Shown here: one piece after another, positions 15,863 through 24,608 of the stretch
Layout: each line of letters opens with the position of its first letter
How positions within the stretch are numbered: position 1 is the first letter of the stretch
Assembly (NCBI GenBank): GCA_024643725.1
Contig: JAHEMJ010000015.1
Span: 62,001 to 126,000, forward strand
Length of the DNA stretch: 64,000 bases
From: Crocinitomicaceae bacterium
GTDB lineage: Bacteria > Bacteroidota > Bacteroidia > Flavobacteriales_D > Crocinitomicaceae
Direction of reading: 5' to 3'
Notes under the pieces: generated by a model
Databases searched by the model: none
Told to the model about the DNA's origin: nothing
Seen by the model: only the letters and a program-made list of their open reading frames with translations
Program-made: the position numbers and the translations under genes

Positions 15863-17290
15863 ATGAAAAGAGGAGATGAACTTTCAGTTCACATCACGGA
15901 CTATGCGTTCGGTGGACGTGGAATTGCCAAATTAGAAACAGAACATGGACAATTCATCGTATTTGTCGACAATACCTTCCCAGGTCAAACCGTACGTGTT
16001 CGCGTTGAAACGAAACGAAAAAATTACGCGGAAGCAAAATTAATCGATGTGGAAACGCGTTCAGAATTTGAGACTGAGCAACGCTTTCAAGAAATTTCAG
16101 GTGGACCATACATTCATGTACCGGTAGCAAAACAAGAAGAAGTCAAGCAAGAATCTACATTAAGTACGTTTGAACGATTAAGTGGCATTCGGGATGTACG
16201 CGAACGATTTGACACGTTCATTTCTTCGCCCCAACATTATTTCTACCGAAATAAAATGGAGTACAGCTTCTCTTGCATCGAACATGACTTAGAGACCAAT
16301 CAAGAATTAGACGATGCCTTTGCACTTGGATTTAAGCGTCGAGGGACATGGTGGAAAGTCGAAAGCTTAAACAAAGCCTCTGGCTTATTCGACGAAGAAT
16401 GGGAAACCAAATTAAAGGAGATTCGCTTGTTCCTCAAAGCGACGAATTTACCCGCTTGGCATCCACCCAAAAAAGTTGGATTCTTTCGCCACATTGTCGT
16501 TCGAAAATCCTTCCACACAAATCAATTGTTATTGAATCTTGTTACATCCACCGATGAAGACAAGGCTTTTGATATTCAAGCTTTCGCTGCTTTTCTTCAA
16601 CAATTGTTACCAGGACGCATTGCCGGATTATGGCATACCGAAAATGACAATGTAGCTGATCGCGCCAAAATTGAAAATGGCACATCGAAATTGATTTTTG
16701 GACAAGCAGTTATTGAAGAAATGTTGTCTGGATTAACTTTCCAGATTTCCATGGAAAGCTTCTTTCAAACGAATCCAGCATGTGCTGAATTGCTTTATGC
16801 AAAAGCCTTGGACTACGTTTTTGAAGAAGAGATTCCCAACGAAAAAGTTGTCATGGATTTGTTCTGTGGAACAGGTACCATAGGACAATTACTCGCGAAA
16901 AGAAATGCTAATGTACGCATTGTTGGTGTGGACATCATCGAAAAAGCGATTGAAGATGCGAAAGAAAATGCAAAGAAAAATGGCATTCATAGCATCGACT
17001 TTTACGCGGCCGATGTCGGTAAATTCCTGAAAGAATATCCAAATTACCAGGGAAATATTTCCTGCATCGTCTTGGATCCACCTCGTGCTGGAATTGCACC
17101 AAAAACATTGCAGAAAGTAATCGATTTAGGAGCAGAACACATTGTATATATTTCCTGTAATCCTTCCACGCAAGCACGAGATGCGAATACACTAAACGAA
17201 GCTGGATACGTGCTCGAAAAATACGCTCTTGCCGATCAGTTTCCACACACAGGACACATTGAGTCCATCGCCAAATTTGTCAAAAAATGA
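15863..17290 (+). CDS. 23S rRNA (uracil-C5)-methyltransferase, RlmD/TrmA family, without Fe-S cysteines
   Basis: A 475-residue SAM-dependent RNA m5U methyltransferase. Residues about 1-65 form a TRAM RNA-binding domain. The C-terminal Rossmann domain has VMDLFCGTGTIGQ (SAM site), VLDPPRAG and the catalytic cysteine in YISCNPST. In RlmD the segment after TRAM normally has a CX5CGGC Fe-S motif; here the aligned stretch reads FQEISGGPYI, with no cysteine. The start ATG at 15863 is one base after the lpxA stop. Its stop overlaps cinA by 4 nt. The target uridine (U1939, U747 or tRNA U54) cannot be assigned from sequence. Confidence 0.88.
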   Translation: MKRGDELSVHITDYAFGGRGIAKLETEHGQFIVFVDNTFPGQTVRVRVETKRKNYAEAKLIDVETRSEFETEQRFQEISGGPYIHVPVAKQEEVKQESTLSTFERLSGIRDVRERFDTFISSPQHYFYRNKMEYSFSCIEHDLETNQELDDAFALGFKRRGTWWKVESLNKASGLFDEEWETKLKEIRLFLKATNLPAWHPPKKVGFFRHIVVRKSFHTNQLLLNLVTSTDEDKAFDIQAFAAFLQQLLPGRIAGLWHTENDNVADRAKIENGTSKLIFGQAVIEEMLSGLTFQISMESFFQTNPACAELLYAKALDYVFEEEIPNEKVVMDLFCGTGTIGQLLAKRNANVRIVGVDIIEKAIEDAKENAKKNGIHSIDFYAADVGKFLKEYPNYQGNISCIVLDPPRAGIAPKTLQKVIDLGAEHIVYISCNPSTQARDANTLNEAGYVLEKYALADQFPHTGHIESIAKFVKK

Positions 17291-18525
17291 ACATTGAAAT
17301 CCTTGCCATCGGAGATGAATTATTGATTGGACAAACAATCAATACGAATGCATCTTGGCTTGGACAAGAATTATCTAAAATCGGTGCGCGCGTGACGCGT
17401 TCAGTTGTGGTTGCAGACGATAGCGCTCGCATCATTGAGGCATTGGAAAATGCTTACCCTGAAACGAATTGTATCATCATTACTGGCGGACTAGGTCCAA
17501 CCAAAGACGATATCACCAAACATACCTTGTGTTCTTATTTTGGTACGCATTTGGAGATGCACCCACCCACATTAGCAAAAATCGAAGCGTATTTCACGTC
17601 AAGAAACCGTCCGATGTTGGAGACTAACATTCAACAAGCGGCACTTCCGGTGGACTGTGAAATTCTTCCAAATAACTACGGGACGGCAGCAGGAATGCTC
17701 TTCGAGAAAGAAGGGCGCTATTGCGTTTCTCTTCCCGGAGTTCCGTATGAAATGAAAGGAATCGTCACGGAAGAATTAATCCCAAGGTTGCTGCAACGTT
17801 TTCAGTTGAAAGCAATGTATCATTACACCGCATTAACGCAAGGAATTGGCGAATCTTTTTTGGCGGAACAAATCAGTGATTGGGAAGACCGCATTCGTGC
17901 GAGAGGATTTGGATTGGCCTATCTTCCATCCCCAGGACTTGTAAAATTGCGCATTACTTCTTTCGAAGGGAAAGAAGATCAAGCAGAGATTATGCAGTTC
18001 TTCCAAGAATTAGCATCCCGTTTACCAGAGGCCGTTTTTGGGTATGAAGCGGACACACTTCCGGAAGTTTGTGGAAGCTTATTAAAGAAAAACAACATGA
18101 CCATTGGAACGGTTGAAAGTTGTACGAGTGGACTTCTGGCGCAACAAATCACGAGTATTTCCGGTGCATCAGACTATTTTATGGGCTCACTCCTCACCTA
18201 TTCCAATGACCTCAAACACCGCTTGTGTGATGTGTCCATTGACGCCATTTTATCCGAAGGCGTGGTCAGCGAACGAGTAGCCATGGAAATGGCTCAAAAC
18301 GGAGCCAAAAAACTGGGTGTGGATGTTTGTATTTCTACGACTGGAGTTGCTGGTCCGACAGGCGGCAGTGTCGATAAACCCGTTGGACTCGTTTGGATTG
18401 GCTTATCCATTTCAGGGAGAACCGTGGCGCGAAAATTCCAATTTGGAGATAACCGCGAACGAAACATTCAAATGACCGTTTTAAGCGCATTGAATTGGTT
18501 GCGCTATGAATTAAGTCAGCGGTAA
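17287..18525 (+). CDS. cinA: CinA family protein (ADP-ribose pyrophosphatase-like / nicotinamide-nucleotide amidase)
   Basis: A 412-residue two-domain protein. Residues about 1-170 are a MoCF-like domain (AIGDELLIGQ, TGGLGPTKDD). Residues about 250-412 are the PncC amidase domain with GTVESCTSGLLA, which in the family deamidates NMN for NAD salvage. It overlaps the methyltransferase by ATGA and ends the lpx run. Its stop directly abuts the stop of the convergent TonB receptor gene. Confidence 0.94.
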   Translation: MNIEILAIGDELLIGQTINTNASWLGQELSKIGARVTRSVVVADDSARIIEALENAYPETNCIIITGGLGPTKDDITKHTLCSYFGTHLEMHPPTLAKIEAYFTSRNRPMLETNIQQAALPVDCEILPNNYGTAAGMLFEKEGRYCVSLPGVPYEMKGIVTEELIPRLLQRFQLKAMYHYTALTQGIGESFLAEQISDWEDRIRARGFGLAYLPSPGLVKLRITSFEGKEDQAEIMQFFQELASRLPEAVFGYEADTLPEVCGSLLKKNNMTIGTVESCTSGLLAQQITSISGASDYFMGSLLTYSNDLKHRLCDVSIDAILSEGVVSERVAMEMAQNGAKKLGVDVCISTTGVAGPTGGSVDKPVGLVWIGLSISGRTVARKFQFGDNRERNIQMTVLSALNWLRYELSQR

Positions 18526-20940
18526 TTACTTTCCATCAAATCGATACGTATATTGCAACATAATGGTGCGTGGCGCTTCAATTTTTAGCGGACGTAAAGA
18601 ATATGTTCGATTGAAAATATTGCTGCCAATCAAGGCCAATTTATGTTGTTCCGAGAAGTTGAAGGAAATGCGCGTGTCGAAGATCCAATTCCCAAAACGA
18701 TGCGCATTGAAATAGTCCATGTATTTTAAATCTTGCAACAATTCATTGTCTGCAGTGATTTGCTCAAAATCCTTAATAATGGCGTCCATATTAACCATTT
18801 TGGAAAAGTACTTCGCACTCACGCCAAGCGCATACTTTTTATTCCACGTATGTTCTGCGTCGAACTTGAAGTTATGCAAGAAACGGTATTTCAAGATTCC
18901 TTTGCTTGGATCCATGGAAGTAGATTGATACGTGAAGACACGATTTAAAGAATCCGTGGCATAGACAAAATTTGGACTTAATGTTTTCGGAACAATGTAA
19001 TTGTATCCCGCCAAGAAGGTAATTTCACCTTTCTTGGAAGTTTTTGCCTTACCCGCATAGGAAACATCGAGTCCGGTCACACGGGAATTGCCTGTATTTA
19101 AAAACATGAATCCCGCACTGGACCCCATGGATTGAACAGAGGTCAATTCATGCCAAATTCCAAACATGTATTCGATGGTGTTTTGGTATTCTTGCCAGAA
19201 TCCGGCGATGTCCAAATACCCCATGACTTTTCCTAGTTTAATCCCCTGCTTAATCCCGATTTCAGCATTCCAACTACTTTCAGGTTTTAACGATGGATTG
19301 GGGAATACACCAAAATTTCCAACACCCGTTTTGATGTAGCGTTCAGTAATGGTTGGAAAACGGAATCCTTGTCCGTATGAAGCCCGTAAATACGTACCCT
19401 TGTGAATTTGGTACGTAGATCCCGCACGAAAAATGGGTTTTGTTGCGGTTATGGTGTCATTCAACTGAAAGTACTCTAATCGTCCACCTGCGGATAAATT
19501 CAAGCGCTCATTCCACTTGCTTTCTAGTTGGGTGTAGATGGAAAGATTCAAAATATTGTTATTTGGAGAACCGGATCCAGCGTAAATGTTTGCCTCTGAT
19601 TTTGTATACGTGCTGGTCACTCCCGCTACCATCTCTATTTGTTTCCAATCGGTCAATTTCTTTTGATACATATAATCTCCGTAAAAGGTCATTGCCTTGT
19701 TCGATTGATTGGCAGACATGTTGTTATCCACTTTCAACAAACGTGAACGCAAGTAGTGTTTCCCCTTATTTTCAGTGAGGTAATGTATGAATGGATCGAC
19801 ATTAAAAATAAATTGATCTTGCAAGAAAATTGCTCCAGGATAAGCACGGTAAAGTCCAGAAGAATCGTTCAGCCAAGCTAAAGGCATCGCTGTATGCATT
19901 TTCATGAAATTGCCGTTGATTCCGTAGGAAAGTCCTTTTATTTTCGCAGAACGGTAGCGCAAATTAAAATTCACACGCGCACGTCTTGACACCAGGTCCT
20001 TTTCCGAAAAGTTCGTAATGGTATCGGGAAAAACTGTGGCAACAAGGGAATCCGTTTTTGGTGGACCAATGTATCCATGATCTTGATTTAAGTTTCCACC
20101 AACTACCAAATCCAAATTACCAATGCGGCGCGTATGCAAGAAATTCAGCCCATGAATACCTGGATATTGTTGGTTCCATTTCATTTGTGGATCGGATGGA
20201 TTGGAATAAAATCCACTGTACAATTGAACTTTCGTCATTGGTTTAGCCTTTGGATAGGCTGTTCGAATGTGAATGGATCCTGACAACGCAGAACTACCAG
20301 AAAGCACCGAAGCGGCGCCTTTTGTCACTTCAACTTGGCTAATATTTTCCACGGGGATAAAGCCCCATTCCGGACGACCTGCATCACCAGAGAGCATCGG
20401 CATGTCGTCGACGATTACCGCTACTTTTGATCCAACGCCGAAGGTAAATCCACTTCCACCGCGAATTTGAGGCTCTCCATCGAGGATGTTTAATCCAGGT
20501 GTTTGGTCCAAGGCTGTTTCAATGCTTCGGGTATTTTTATTTTCAATGAGTTCTGGTTTTAACACCACCATCGTCACGGTTTGCTCTTCGATGGGTTTGT
20601 CGAACTTTCCTACCGTCACTTTGACCTGATCAACGTTTTGTGTTCGCTCCTTTAAATAGAAATGATGTACGACATCGCCTTGCTGCTGAGCAATTGTAAA
20701 GGTGTCCATTTGCATGCCATCGTAGACACAGCGAAGCACATTCGTTCCGGATGCAACATTCACGATTTTGTAGGAACCATCTGCTTGTGAAATAGCACCA
20801 TTACGTTGTCCAACAATGCTAACCCGTGCACCTTTCAGAACTTGCTTTTGTTGATCATACACGAATCCTGAAATAGAAAATGATTGCGCATAAAAAGTAG
20901 CCCATGAAAGGCTCAATAAAAAACTCAGAAATACCTTCAT
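18526..20940 (-). CDS. TonB-dependent outer membrane receptor with carboxypeptidase-like N-terminal domain
   Basis: An 804-residue outer membrane transporter. A signal peptide (1-18) is followed by a CarboxypepD-reg-like beta-sandwich (about 23-105), a plug domain (about 120-230, with PGLNILDGEPQIRGGSG) and a 22-strand-type barrel ending in the aromatic YTYRF motif. The extra N-terminal domain is typical of Bacteroidota receptors. The substrate is not readable: no SusD gene adjoins it, so a siderophore, cobalamin or metal chelate is as likely as a glycan. It starts 9 nt after the stop of the PCMD gene upstream and is probably cotranscribed with it. Confidence 0.92.
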   Translation of the reverse strand: MKVFLSFLLSLSWATFYAQSFSISGFVYDQQKQVLKGARVSIVGQRNGAISQADGSYKIVNVASGTNVLRCVYDGMQMDTFTIAQQQGDVVHHFYLKERTQNVDQVKVTVGKFDKPIEEQTVTMVVLKPELIENKNTRSIETALDQTPGLNILDGEPQIRGGSGFTFGVGSKVAVIVDDMPMLSGDAGRPEWGFIPVENISQVEVTKGAASVLSGSSALSGSIHIRTAYPKAKPMTKVQLYSGFYSNPSDPQMKWNQQYPGIHGLNFLHTRRIGNLDLVVGGNLNQDHGYIGPPKTDSLVATVFPDTITNFSEKDLVSRRARVNFNLRYRSAKIKGLSYGINGNFMKMHTAMPLAWLNDSSGLYRAYPGAIFLQDQFIFNVDPFIHYLTENKGKHYLRSRLLKVDNNMSANQSNKAMTFYGDYMYQKKLTDWKQIEMVAGVTSTYTKSEANIYAGSGSPNNNILNLSIYTQLESKWNERLNLSAGGRLEYFQLNDTITATKPIFRAGSTYQIHKGTYLRASYGQGFRFPTITERYIKTGVGNFGVFPNPSLKPESSWNAEIGIKQGIKLGKVMGYLDIAGFWQEYQNTIEYMFGIWHELTSVQSMGSSAGFMFLNTGNSRVTGLDVSYAGKAKTSKKGEITFLAGYNYIVPKTLSPNFVYATDSLNRVFTYQSTSMDPSKGILKYRFLHNFKFDAEHTWNKKYALGVSAKYFSKMVNMDAIIKDFEQITADNELLQDLKYMDYFNAHRFGNWIFDTRISFNFSEQHKLALIGSNIFNRTYSLRPLKIEAPRTIMLQYTYRFDGK

Positions 20941-20949
20941 GAAAAGGGC

Positions 20950-21879
20950 TTAGGGGATAAACAGTTTTTGCGTTTTTCCTTCAAACTTGAGAATATACTG
21001 TCCTGACGGCAAGGTTTTACCCAAGAACTGTGCAACCTCCGCTTGTTTCACTAATTGACCAGATATACTGTAAACAGAAAGCTTAGTATCCATCGGAATA
21101 TCCTTGGCCATTAATCCATGTACGGAAGAATAATACAGTTGAACAGCAGCATGTAACTCGTTTACAGAGCTTGCATTATAAATCAATTCGATGTCATCAA
21201 TGAGAACTTCGTCGTTTGCGGCACCTCCACCCGGATTTTTATTTGTCGCAAATGTCATCAATATAAATTGAGGTGTTGGCATTTGTCCAGTCTGTACTTC
21301 ATATACGAATGGTGTTGAAAAACGCACCCAATTCCCACCTGTTGGCGCATAATTCAATTCTGCCCTTGCTACTACATGTGGTTGCGAAGCTGCATCAATT
21401 GGATCATGCACATCAAAACTATCGTGAACAATGGCATGAATGCGCGCTTGTTGGCCTGATCCAGCCGTATATTTTGCCCAGAAAACGGCAGAATCTGGTA
21501 CGTTTGAAATCGGCTCCGAAAATAAGGTATCCGCTGTTTTTGAATAATTAAAATTCAATGCACTGGATGCCGTCGTACTTCCCATGTTAATTTGCCCAAG
21601 GGTTAAAGTCCCATTAGCTACCACACCTAGCGTACTTTTTGACCAAATGCGCGCGCAGTACATTCCTGTTGCATTCGCACGAATCGCCGTTGATTGCTCC
21701 ACTTGTTGGGATCCAAAGGATACAAGTCCGCCGGTACCAGATTTAAATCCATTCCAGTTCGTTGGTTCTTCTGTTGTTAATCCTAGATTATCCCATGATT
21801 CCATATTACTATTCGCAATTTGCTGCGCGTAAGTTAAGGAAGTGAAAATGATGCTTATCAGTGTAAATTTTATTTTCAT
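20950..21879 (-). CDS. Secreted PCMD-domain protein with T9SS sorting tail
   Basis: A 309-residue protein with a signal peptide (1-18, ending TYAQQ). Residues about 20-235 resemble the PCMD (putative carbohydrate metabolism) beta-sandwich: NSNMESWDN start, ADTLFSEPI, PDSAVFWAKY and VLIDDIELIY end. The last 70 residues look like a short type A T9SS sorting tail (VYSISGQLV, LPSGQYILKF). It is likely placed on the cell surface and may bind a ligand for the TonB receptor encoded 9 nt downstream. That role is inference from gene order. Confidence 0.8.
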   Translation of the reverse strand: MKIKFTLISIIFTSLTYAQQIANSNMESWDNLGLTTEEPTNWNGFKSGTGGLVSFGSQQVEQSTAIRANATGMYCARIWSKSTLGVVANGTLTLGQINMGSTTASSALNFNYSKTADTLFSEPISNVPDSAVFWAKYTAGSGQQARIHAIVHDSFDVHDPIDAASQPHVVARAELNYAPTGGNWVRFSTPFVYEVQTGQMPTPQFILMTFATNKNPGGGAANDEVLIDDIELIYNASSVNELHAAVQLYYSSVHGLMAKDIPMDTKLSVYSISGQLVKQAEVAQFLGKTLPSGQYILKFEGKTQKLFIP

Positions 21880-21956
21880 AATGTTAGCTTTAGGTAAACA
21901 AATATAACGATTTTCACTTTCAAAAACACGTCTTCTATTCTGCCCATAATTTTACT

Positions 21957-21964
21957 TAACTTTG
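21957..21964 (+). promoter_or_regulatory. -7 promoter element of queE
   Basis: TAACTTTG, a perfect TAnnTTTG match, 4 nt before the queE ATG. A -33 box is not obvious. Confidence 0.6.
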
Positions 21965-21968
21965 TTCA

Positions 21969-22592
21969 ATGTCAGCTCAAAATACACCATTCAACCATCC
22001 CTTGCCCATCATGGAACATTTCTTCACTATACAAGGAGAAGGCTACCATTCTGGACGTGTTGCTTATTTTATCCGAACAGCCGGATGCGATGTGGGTTGT
22101 GTGTGGTGCGATGTGAAAGAAAGTTGGACAATCGACGAATCACAATACATGTCCATTTCATCCATCGTAGATGAAGTGCTGTCTGTTGGCGCCAATTTTG
22201 TTGTGATCACAGGTGGAGAACCAACCATGCATTCTTTATCCGCTTTGGTAGATTCTTTGCATGAAAATCACATTGAAGTGGCCATTGAAACAGCGGGAGT
22301 TCATCCCTTAGATGCCGCCATAGATTGGTATTGTTTTTCTCCGAAAAAATTCAAAAAACCCATCGAAGAAGCTTACGAAAAGGCGAATGAATTGAAGGTG
22401 GTCATCAATCATCCGTCGGATATTGCTTGGGCAGAAGAACACGCGCAAAAAGTTGGCTCATCTTGTCAATTATACTTGCAACCGGAGTGGGAAAAAAGTG
22501 ATAAAATTCTTCCACTCATCATCGACTATGTGAAAGGTAACCAAAAGTGGCAGATTTCGTTACAGACACACAAATACATGAACATTCCATAA
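21969..22592 (+). CDS. queE: 7-carboxy-7-deazaguanine synthase
   Basis: A 207-residue radical-SAM enzyme making 7-carboxy-7-deazaguanine for queuosine. The substrate block FFTIQGEGYHSGR and the cluster motif C40-X3-C44-X2-C47 are visible, followed by TGGEPTMH. It heads a compact plus-strand run (queE, porE-like, UbiA-type, maf) with no gaps. The other queuosine genes are not in the window. Confidence 0.95.
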   Translation: MSAQNTPFNHPLPIMEHFFTIQGEGYHSGRVAYFIRTAGCDVGCVWCDVKESWTIDESQYMSISSIVDEVLSVGANFVVITGGEPTMHSLSALVDSLHENHIEVAIETAGVHPLDAAIDWYCFSPKKFKKPIEEAYEKANELKVVINHPSDIAWAEEHAQKVGSSCQLYLQPEWEKSDKILPLIIDYVKGNQKWQISLQTHKYMNIP

Positions 22593-24608
22593 ATGAGAAA
22601 TTTCGTACTTCTATCTTTTTTCCTTTTGCTCGTTTACGGTTGCTCCAATGCGCAATTTCCTTATTCGACTTCCAATAAAAAAGCCATTCACTATTTTGAA
22701 CTAGCGGAAAAAGCCCCGAAAGAAGGAATGGATCCAATGACGGGAGCGTACGATTTTAAATCGGGGATTGAATTATTGGGCAAGGCCCTGGAAAAAGATT
22801 CAAATTTCTGGGAAGCGCATGTATTGGATGCTGAATTCAATGAAATTCAACGCAACTACAAGCAAGCCATTTTTCATTACAAACGTGCATTAGAAATTGA
22901 TCCCAATCACAGCATTAGTGGATCGAGCACCTACCACCTTGCCACATGTCAAATGGCCATCGGTGATTACAACGGTGCGTTAAAGAGTTGCTCCATCTAT
23001 TTGAAAAATCCGAATGCAAAGGAAGAGAACTTGGGGACGGTTCGTCGCATGCAAGACTGTGCGAATTTCGCTATGACAGCAATGAAAAATCCAAAACCTT
23101 TTGAGCCTAAAAACATTGGACCATCCATCAATACCAATTTCTCGGAGTATTATCCAACCATCACAGTGGATGGTAAAACACTTTTCTTCACGAGAAGATT
23201 AGTAGAATATCAGGGAGAAAACAAACGCGAGCAGGAGGACTTTTACATTTCCTTAAACATTGACCAAGTTTGGTCTAAGTCTTTTCCGATGCCGAGGAAT
23301 GTCAACACGCCCTACAACGAAGGCGCACCAACCATTTCCGCCGACGGCAAAAGCTTGATTTTCGTAGCTTGTACAGATGAAAGTGGCGTGGACTACGGAG
23401 CCAATCGTCAGGGAAAAGGAAGTTGTGATTTATTCATCACTCAAAAAAATGGTAGTCAATGGACGAATCCAACGAACCTGCCTGGAAAAGTGAATTCCAC
23501 TCATTGGGAAACGCAACCATCCATGAGTGCAGACGGAAAAACTTTGTATTTCATCAGAGGGATGCGCAGCAGAGATGGTAAAAAGGATTCGGATATTTAC
23601 GTGTCGCATTTACTAGCCGATGGCACTTGGAGTTTAGCAGAACCCTTGCCTCCACACATCAATTCCAATCAAAACGAAGAATCCGTCTTAATTCACCCGG
23701 ATGGAAAAACCTTGTATTTTGCTTCGCGTGGACACGTGGGTATGGGTGGTTCCGACTTATTCGTTTCCCGCATGGACGCAAAAGGCAATTGGGGATTGCC
23801 CCAAAATTTAGGATACCCAATTAATACCTTGTCTGATGAAAATTCCTTGATGGTTTCTCCGGAAGGCGACGTGGCTTTCTTTGCCTCTGATCGTCCTGGG
23901 GGATATGGACTGATGGACATCTATTACTTCCAATTACCAACAGAAGACCAACCCATTAAAACACTTTATTTCGATGGATTCGTGTTCGATGCGAATTCCA
24001 AAAAACCCTTGGGTGCAAGTTTTCAATTAACGAATTTATCCACCGGAGAAAGAGTGATTCAGTCCAAAGCGGATGGCACTGACGGGACTTTTGTTGTTCC
24101 CCTGCCGATTAATACTGACTATGCGATTGAAGTGAATTTCCCTGGATACTTGCCTTATTCCTTGAATTTCAACATGACCTTGAAAGAAAACGAGCAAAGT
24201 TATCACTTGCAAATTCCATTGAATCCAGAAAACTCCTCTGCTGAAAACGTACTTTCAAATGTGTTTTTTGACCTAAATCAAGCTAAGTTGCGTCCGGAGT
24301 CCAAAGTGGAATTAATTTCGTTTGCTAATTACTTGAAAGCTCGTCCAAAAATGAAAATCGAGATTGGTGGTCATACCGATTCAAGAGGTAACGCCGAGGA
24401 AAACTTGACGCTTTCTACCAACCGTGCAAAAGCGGTATATGAATTCTTAATTGCTCAAGGAATACCTGCTGGACAAATGTCCTACAAAGGATATGGCTCC
24501 AGTCAACCAATCATTTCCGACAAAGAAATCAATGCGATGAGTAATGCGGAACAAAAAGAAAAAGCGCATCAAAAAAATCGTCGAACCACTTACACCATTC
24601 GTCCATGA
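22593..24608 (+). CDS. porE: PorE-like lipoprotein: TPR, beta-propeller, CRD and OmpA domains
   Basis: A 671-residue lipoprotein with a signal peptide ending in the lipobox LLVYGC (Cys17). Domain order: TPR helices (about 25-125); a PD40/WD40-like propeller with repeated SADGKTLYF-type motifs (about 150-450); a carboxypeptidase-regulatory-like fold (about 455-540); and an OmpA peptidoglycan-binding domain (about 550-671, GGHTDSRGNAEEN and NRAKAVYEFL). This four-part order and the length match P. gingivalis PorE, which links the type IX secretion trans-envelope complex to peptidoglycan. Related OmpA lipoproteins of other function share the parts, so orthology is likely but not proven. It follows queE without a gap. 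Confidence 0.82.
   Translation: MRNFVLLSFFLLLVYGCSNAQFPYSTSNKKAIHYFELAEKAPKEGMDPMTGAYDFKSGIELLGKALEKDSNFWEAHVLDAEFNEIQRNYKQAIFHYKRALEIDPNHSISGSSTYHLATCQMAIGDYNGALKSCSIYLKNPNAKEENLGTVRRMQDCANFAMTAMKNPKPFEPKNIGPSINTNFSEYYPTITVDGKTLFFTRRLVEYQGENKREQEDFYISLNIDQVWSKSFPMPRNVNTPYNEGAPTISADGKSLIFVACTDESGVDYGANRQGKGSCDLFITQKNGSQWTNPTNLPGKVNSTHWETQPSMSADGKTLYFIRGMRSRDGKKDSDIYVSHLLADGTWSLAEPLPPHINSNQNEESVLIHPDGKTLYFASRGHVGMGGSDLFVSRMDAKGNWGLPQNLGYPINTLSDENSLMVSPEGDVAFFASDRPGGYGLMDIYYFQLPTEDQPIKTLYFDGFVFDANSKKPLGASFQLTNLSTGERVIQSKADGTDGTFVVPLPINTDYAIEVNFPGYLPYSLNFNMTLKENEQSYHLQIPLNPENSSAENVLSNVFFDLNQAKLRPESKVELISFANYLKARPKMKIEIGGHTDSRGNAEENLTLSTNRAKAVYEFLIAQGIPAGQMSYKGYGSSQPIISDKEINAMSNAEQKEKAHQKNRRTTYTIRP

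Follow-up and report, generated by a model that had tools for sequence, protein, structure and literature searches.

How is a TonB-dependent receptor gene to be read when it is preceded, on the same strand, by a gene for a PCMD-domain protein with a sorting tail of the type IX secretion system (T9SS)? The question is raised by positions 18526-21879 of a 64,000-nucleotide stretch, here called the window, from a Crocinitomicaceae bacterium (assembly GCA_024643725.1, contig JAHEMJ010000015.1, positions 62,001 to 126,000 of the forward strand). A first-pass annotation, made from the letters alone, had taken the PCMD protein to be the surface ligand binder of a two-part uptake system. Its account of the layout holds: the coordinates of both open reading frames (ORFs) place the PCMD gene 9 nt upstream of the receptor gene, and none of the five locus proteins scanned is a SusD, matches to PF14322 (SusD-like_3), the one SusD family searched, being confined to contigs C16 and C17 elsewhere in the genome. 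That the two genes form an old, conserved unit is well supported, and the almost constant juxtaposition of this receptor with a secreted surface protein of sugar-binding type suggests a two-part system for nutrient uptake that has gone unrecognised in these aquatic bacteria.

Conservation in related genomes was a point on which the proposal had been made to depend from the outset, and within the order the pair is shared between genera and between families. The PCMD protein has a match in 42 of 60 genomes (its own, 36 of the same genus and 23 of the order). Five of the 36 same-genus relatives have none; four of these (G007, G012, G014 and G023) have receptors at paralogue level only, and in the fifth, G031, whose genome is 66% complete, a receptor fragment sits at a contig end. 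A wider survey of 199 genomes of the order joined PCMD-profile matches to receptor-profile matches, scoring the best 11 PCMD and best 5 receptor candidates per genome; PCMD matches were listed down to about 34 bits, and weaker PCMD proteins could be missed. Receptor scores break between 1049 and 902 bits, and those above the break are termed clade receptors. Among the matches listed, 61 of 62 clade receptors adjoin a PCMD gene on the same strand, which is upstream in 60 cases and directly downstream in one (G051). The sole clade receptor for which no PCMD gene is seen among these matches (G040) is at a contig end. Thirteen of 15 further receptors joined in the survey have no adjoining PCMD match, the others being in G088, where the pair is broken, and in G047, dealt with below. 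In a second, partly overlapping genome collection, in which most named records are metagenome-assembled genomes of uncultured Crocinitomicaceae and Flavobacteriales, the pair is present in 67 of 77 informative loci and the PCMD gene stands alone in 10, with three more loci ending at a contig edge. The gap between the paired ORFs ranges from -8 to 63 nt (67 pairs), and the pair is kept while its flanks change among cinA and genes for ribosomal protein S16, glutamate dehydrogenase, an EngA-type GTPase and an FGGY kinase. Among 296 genomes sampled from the phylum, 7 have this PCMD family (E<=1e-15, best 7 candidates per genome) and one, the own genome, has the receptor clade (E<=1e-270, best 3 candidates per genome), which suggests, at these strict cut-offs, that the pair does not extend beyond the order. 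Damaged copies also occur: the PCMD gene is frame-broken beside an intact receptor in one locus (L061, genome G017), and both genes are broken in another (L233, genome G088), with assembly error possible in each case.

The receptors that travel with PCMD proteins also belong together by descent. One side of a 100/100 branch of the receptor tree holds 27 PCMD-linked receptors (26 seen paired, and that of G040) together with the G047 receptor, and the other side holds 16 related receptors without PCMD. A PCMD-profile search of the fetched ORFs around those 16 gave no PCMD domain, with the upstream side unseen for L073, which starts at a contig end; the single match, L075_1, is to a T9SS tail only. 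The window genome itself has two receptor paralogues, without PCMD, by what appears by eye to be a kdsB-like gene.

The identity of the upstream protein as a PCMD protein with a T9SS tail stands, since both assignments pass a cut-off; each is marginal by sequence, and fold comparison strengthens the first. The match to PF13201 is 36.5 bits against a gathering cut-off of 28, and throughout the family this assignment is marginal, 9 of 55 homologues in alignment A3 (the window protein included) matching at E<=0.001. The same profile found nothing in a search of the own genome although the gene is present, and alignment-based searches were substituted there; a single-sequence search with the PCMD protein for solved BT2081-type relatives also gave no match. 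These Bacteroides proteins are the founders of PF13201. An AlphaFold2 (AF2) model of the PCMD domain is comparable to the solved structures 3hbz, 4jrl, 3s30 and 4het at Z scores of 16.6-17.3 over about 195 residues (for 3hbz, Z 17.3 with a root-mean-square deviation of 3.4 and 195 aligned), the next matches being carbohydrate-binding modules (CBMs) and other jelly rolls at Z about 10-12. Profile A1 matches 3s30 (E 3.2e-07) and 3hbz (E 2.3e-06). With the modelled fold compared, the PCMD assignment is firm despite its marginal sequence score.

Would such a domain bind a ligand or cut it? For BT2081 (3hbz), the 2010 paper (PMC2954218) suggests a glycoside hydrolase, proposing Asp259 and Asp338 as its catalytic residues and assigning calcium binding to Asp351. 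By analogy the window protein would be a surface hydrolase acting to free or trim a ligand on behalf of the receptor, an improbable reading on the present evidence even though depositors labelled the solved relatives 'putative glycoside hydrolase' and the fold is common to CBMs and domains of carbohydrate-active enzymes. When the numbering of that paper is placed, by our own mapping, on a remote profile alignment, neither catalytic position has Asp in any of 29 sequences: Asp259 falls at position 146 (R, G, T, V, K, E or Q) and Asp338 at position 215 (N, T, I or a gap, 7 of the 29 being gapped). The calcium ligand falls at D228, which is Asp in all 29. No carbohydrate-active gene is present among the scanned neighbours of the locus. 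Absence of Asp from both candidate catalytic positions makes it more likely, as far as aligned residues can tell, that the PCMD protein is a binder rather than an enzyme, and a ligand-binding role is plausible given the modelled jelly roll, the T9SS tail and the parallels with B12 and haem systems. The first-pass annotation was right that PCMD function is essentially unknown, yet BT2081 and several PCMD-type paralogues were already associated with SusC-type porins in the 2010 paper (PMC2954218), so a general link between PCMD proteins and receptors is not new. The open-licence PMC literature gave nothing relevant on PCMD with TonB, nothing under PF13201 or PCMD domain and nothing on a T9SS operon of this kind.

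The receptor of the window is of a different class from those porins. Against the SusC/RagA profile TIGR04056 it scores 69.5 bits, and the cut-off for membership is 368.25. With a receptor this far below the SusC cut-off, a missing SusD is expected rather than surprising, and to describe the PCMD protein as standing there 'instead of SusD', as had been done, is overstated and misleading. A SusCD reading of the locus was considered and is out, the receptor being non-SusC and the locus having no SusD. The AF2 model of the receptor is weak (mean predicted local distance difference test score, pLDDT, 65.7, with residues 108-228, the plug, below 50), and its structural matches to BtuB and to siderophore, haem and copper receptors are tied within about 2 Z units. 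A model this weak in the plug and with matches so tied is unsuited to ligand inference.

Export of the PCMD protein would be by way of its tail. This region scores 24.2 bits with TIGR04183 (cut-off 23), and with the stricter Pfam model PF18962 it is below the cut-off (19.4 versus 27). TIGR04183 is matched at E<=0.001 by 26 of the 55 A3 homologues, again a marginal assignment, and profile A1 matches the solved T9SS tails 8glk (E 0.0002) and 8glj (E 0.002). The T9SS core gene sprA, the T9SS gene searched for, is present in the own genome (TIGR04189, 2359 bits, contig C5). From these sequence matches we infer export through T9SS and a surface location. Among 18 fetched pairs from other genera, 10 have a longer PCMD protein (491-743 aa) with extra domains between the PCMD domain and the T9SS tail; of two such proteins run through Pfam, one has PKD and the second has Ig and cadherin-like domains. 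The partner of the G047 receptor is of a different kind: it is PCMD-like, 385 aa long, has a lipobox-like Cys (judged by eye) and no Pfam tail match, and is encoded 60 nt before the receptor. This lipoprotein-like partner (locus L084) has no Pfam match at all and is tied to PCMD solely by profile A1 at 40-41 bits, and the L084 receptor is on a long branch of the receptor tree. The anchor thus seems exchangeable while the pairing of PCMD with receptor persists.

There is a likely precedent in this lineage for T9SS export of nutrient binders. The single cobalamin riboswitch match of the own genome precedes a gene for a 427-aa protein with a T9SS tail (L240:6220-7503(-), contig C2), which has weak matches (E about 0.04-0.09) to solved propeller chains. 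These chains are presumably BtuG, and the protein is possibly a T9SS-exported BtuG-like B12 binder. In a relative (L123, 836-1816(-)) the gene behind a cobalamin riboswitch encodes a DUF4465 protein with a T9SS tail (Pfam 157 and 43 bits), and in another (L128, 5244-6203(+)) it encodes a T9SS-type protein that is DUF4465-like by resemblance; both genes are directly downstream of the PCMD pair and adjoin what looks by eye to be a TonB receptor-like gene. DUF4465 proteins bind B12 according to PMC12751083 and PMC13398666. T9SS-tailed genes behind cobalamin riboswitches, taken with that binding, point by analogy to a lineage that probably exports binders of scarce nutrients by T9SS.

Signals for transcription point in the same direction for the two genes of the pair. 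Of 31 chosen loci, those with a solo PCMD gene included, 29 have the motif TAnnTTTG 8-23 nt upstream of the PCMD start as called, where 2.7 are expected from mononucleotide shuffles; we take it to be the -7 promoter element of Bacteroidota. In the window there is none within 160 nt before the receptor start. The short gap, the motif before the PCMD gene and its absence before the receptor gene predict a single transcript, and co-transcription is likely on these sequence features.

The reading that we hold to be the most likely, with moderate confidence, is that the PCMD gene and the gene for the 804-aa receptor are transcribed as a unit and encode the two parts of an outer-membrane uptake system in which the PCMD protein captures the ligand. 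The protein would be exported through T9SS and held on the cell surface, where its CBM-like jelly roll may offer a non-catalytic pocket for a scarce solute of small or medium size. Captured solute would then be passed to the TonB-dependent receptor for import, and the PCMD protein would serve its receptor as BtuG, BtuJ or HmuY serve theirs, with a T9SS anchor instead of a lipoprotein one. What the analysis shows is the gene order, its conservation, the clade structure, the predicted fold, the T9SS tail match and the presence of sprA; from these we infer co-transcription, surface location, receptor contact and ligand capture.

Several findings weigh against it, and the strongest comes from a natural loss of the receptor. 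In one subclade, which accounts for the 10 of 77 informative loci with a solo PCMD gene, the order is queE-PCMD-cinA throughout and the receptor is gone from the site. The solo genes have ratios of nonsynonymous to synonymous substitution (dN/dS) of 0.04-0.19, median 0.06 (11 pairs with dS <2, 9 of them with dS >1), that is, they are under purifying selection. The control, 18 chosen paired PCMDs, has a median of 0.24 over 77 pairs, a figure dominated by divergent pairs, the closest giving 0.05-0.18. When 9 solo proteins are set beside 46 paired ones, 61 conserved positions are common and 4 (K136, R146, N176 and G182) are lost. It follows from the purifying selection that PCMD function outlasts this receptor. 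Seven of the eight solo genomes covered by the receptor search have only paralogue-level receptors (about 36-39% identity) and the eighth, G034, has none at that cut-off, and perhaps the solo function runs with a receptor paralogue. The earlier proposal of a two-part system with PCMD as the ligand binder is strengthened by the conservation of the pair and weakened by loci that keep a selected PCMD gene without the receptor. In nine of the ten solo loci cinA and the PCMD gene overlap by 4 nt, and in L149 they are 6 nt apart; the overlaps imply that the receptor was removed very cleanly, apparently.

Also on that side, 14 of 72 PCMD matches of at least 205 bits in the order survey have no adjoining receptor among the matches listed, three of the 14 being at contig ends. 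Conservation is lower in the PCMD protein than in the receptor (mean column identity 53% in A3 and 72% in A4, two sets of loci that are similar and non-identical), which also fits a loosely coupled accessory. Distant PCMD proteins adjoin non-TonB barrels of about 240 aa in six loci (L218-L221, of family f35 in another class, and L228 and L229, of family f13), where the barrel gene is closely 3′ of the PCMD gene and some of the ORFs overlap. The barrels are OMP_b-brl_2 (PF13568) in all four tested by Pfam, their size rules out a TonB receptor, and a link between PCMD and a barrel need not mean uptake. As to the ligand, the loci read have no shared ligand gene, and there is no riboswitch at the pair in the window (positions 17000-24000 searched) or before the pair in 15 other loci.

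These observations are the substance of the main rival, in which the PCMD protein, brought to the surface by T9SS, has an independent function, such as glycan or matrix binding, adhesion or capture for another receptor, and shares an operon with this receptor through need under the same conditions, with no handover of ligand. The persistence of receptor-free PCMD genes under selection with most conserved positions kept, and the restriction of nearly all covered solo genomes to paralogue-level receptors, speak for it, as do receptor-free homologues in other genera (L222-L224) and receptor-free second copies in genomes with a pair as well (L119 and L126). We consider it somewhat unlikely nonetheless, in that linkage in 61 of 62 cases that survives changes of flank is, in our judgement and with no rate computed, more than is usual for shared regulation.

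Nothing found singles out B12, haem or glycan as the ligand of the proposed uptake system. A more specific rival has the pair import cobalamin or cobamides. Directly downstream of the pair in genus g27 there is a cobalamin riboswitch with its gene (L123, L128 and L134; 3 of 15 loci), and BtuB chains top the structural list for the receptor model. The riboswitch is after the pair, however, not before it, and precedes other genes; the window pair and the 15 other loci have none in the relevant place, the single match of the window genome is on another contig, and the lead of BtuB is a tie within about 2 Z units with siderophore, haem and copper receptors from a weak model. We regard this rival as very improbable, and B12 was set aside. 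Haem was considered because receptor profiles match haem receptors, and they match Cir, SusC and BtuB chains as well, which gives no specific support. The FRAP-NPNL-like loop of the receptors, which corresponds to the haem-receptor motif, has no His in 40 receptors, keeping in mind that haem receptors vary. Copper was suggested by an SCO1/SenC-like gene after the receptor in two of three fetched g24 pair loci (L121 and L122, not L136; the call rests on a Pfam run for L121) and was dropped as lineage-specific, as is a multicopper oxidase gene that follows a different PCMD gene (L231).

Coordinates of the parts of the locus are collected in the table. The N terminus of the PCMD protein has a signal-peptide-like stretch, judged by eye. 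The receptor gene is flanked by cinA (17287-18525, +), and the other flank, beyond the PCMD gene, has a queE-like radical-SAM gene and an OmpA/PD40 gene (21969-24608, +), the queE-like gene being divergent from the PCMD gene at a distance of 89 nt. The convergent cinA and receptor genes abut at 18525/18526 with zero bases separating their stop codons.

Features of the PCMD-receptor locus, in window coordinates
Feature	Position	Strand	Details and basis
PCMD protein gene	20950..21879	-	309 aa; PF13201 36.5 bits; AF2 mean pLDDT 81.9
PCMD domain, residues 35-233, jelly-roll fold	21181..21777	-	PF13201 profile and structural matches
T9SS type A sorting domain, residues 264-304	20968..21090	-	TIGR04183; profile A1 against solved tails
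Intergenic gap, 9 nt	20941..20949	-	ORF coordinates
TonB-dependent receptor gene, 804 aa, non-SusC-type	18526..20940	-	ORF list and profiles
CarbopepD_reg_2 N-terminal extension of receptor, residues 23-108	20617..20874	-	Profile
Receptor plug domain, residues 118-221	20278..20589	-	Profile, 61.2 bits
Receptor beta-barrel, residues 303-768	18637..20034	-	Profile, 100.1 bits
Candidate Bacteroidota -7 promoter element, TATATTTG	21899..21906	-	19 nt before PCMD start codon

Taking the pair together with the small barrels, it is a tentative possibility that T9SS-exported PCMD proteins are a general class of outer-membrane barrel partners in Bacteroidota, serving as capture modules for one TonB clade and as partners of small non-TonB barrels elsewhere, with the T9SS tail and a lipid anchor swappable and with a capacity to outlive one receptor and serve another. 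If so, T9SS would be a regular export route for nutrient-capture proteins beside the surface lipoproteins. Should the PCMD protein prove to be the capturing partner in the window pair, a family with solved structures and no established function would gain its first specific role, and T9SS would be added to the surface routes of nutrient binders. Because one subclade has naturally lost the receptor and another lineage has a lipoprotein-like version, what partner and anchor each contribute can be put to a direct test.

How does the window pair compare with known systems? SusC/SusD glycan pairs share with it a TonB-dependent receptor and a surface partner encoded alongside, and differ in that the window locus has no SusD and its receptor is far below the SusC cut-off. 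BT2081-type proteins (3hbz, 3s30, 4het and 4jrl) have the jelly roll, and paralogues of theirs are beside SusC-type porins, going by PMC2954218; BT2081, however, carries an Ig-like domain at its N terminus and is predicted to be anchored as a lipoprotein or in the membrane, whereas the window protein has a T9SS tail after the PCMD domain (with PKD or Ig-type domains between in some relatives) and a non-SusC receptor. The haem uptake proteins HfpY and HfpR of Flavobacterium psychrophilum, and the HmuY family, are likewise two-part, with a binder and a non-SusC TonB receptor. According to PMC9331221, the HfpY/HfpR work is experimental, the two are co-transcribed, the binder is HmuY-type and the receptor can work without it. 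The window pair differs in having PCMD rather than HmuY as partner and no His in the corresponding receptor loop. The B12 capture proteins BtuJ (DUF4465) and BtuG, which function with BtuB in Bacteroides, belong to other families, and the window pair has no riboswitch; yet in PMC12751083 and PMC13398666 they are surface binders encoded with a TonB-dependent receptor, and BtuJ too is a jelly roll, an augmented one. A DUF4465 protein with a T9SS tail is present in a relative of the window genome (L123).

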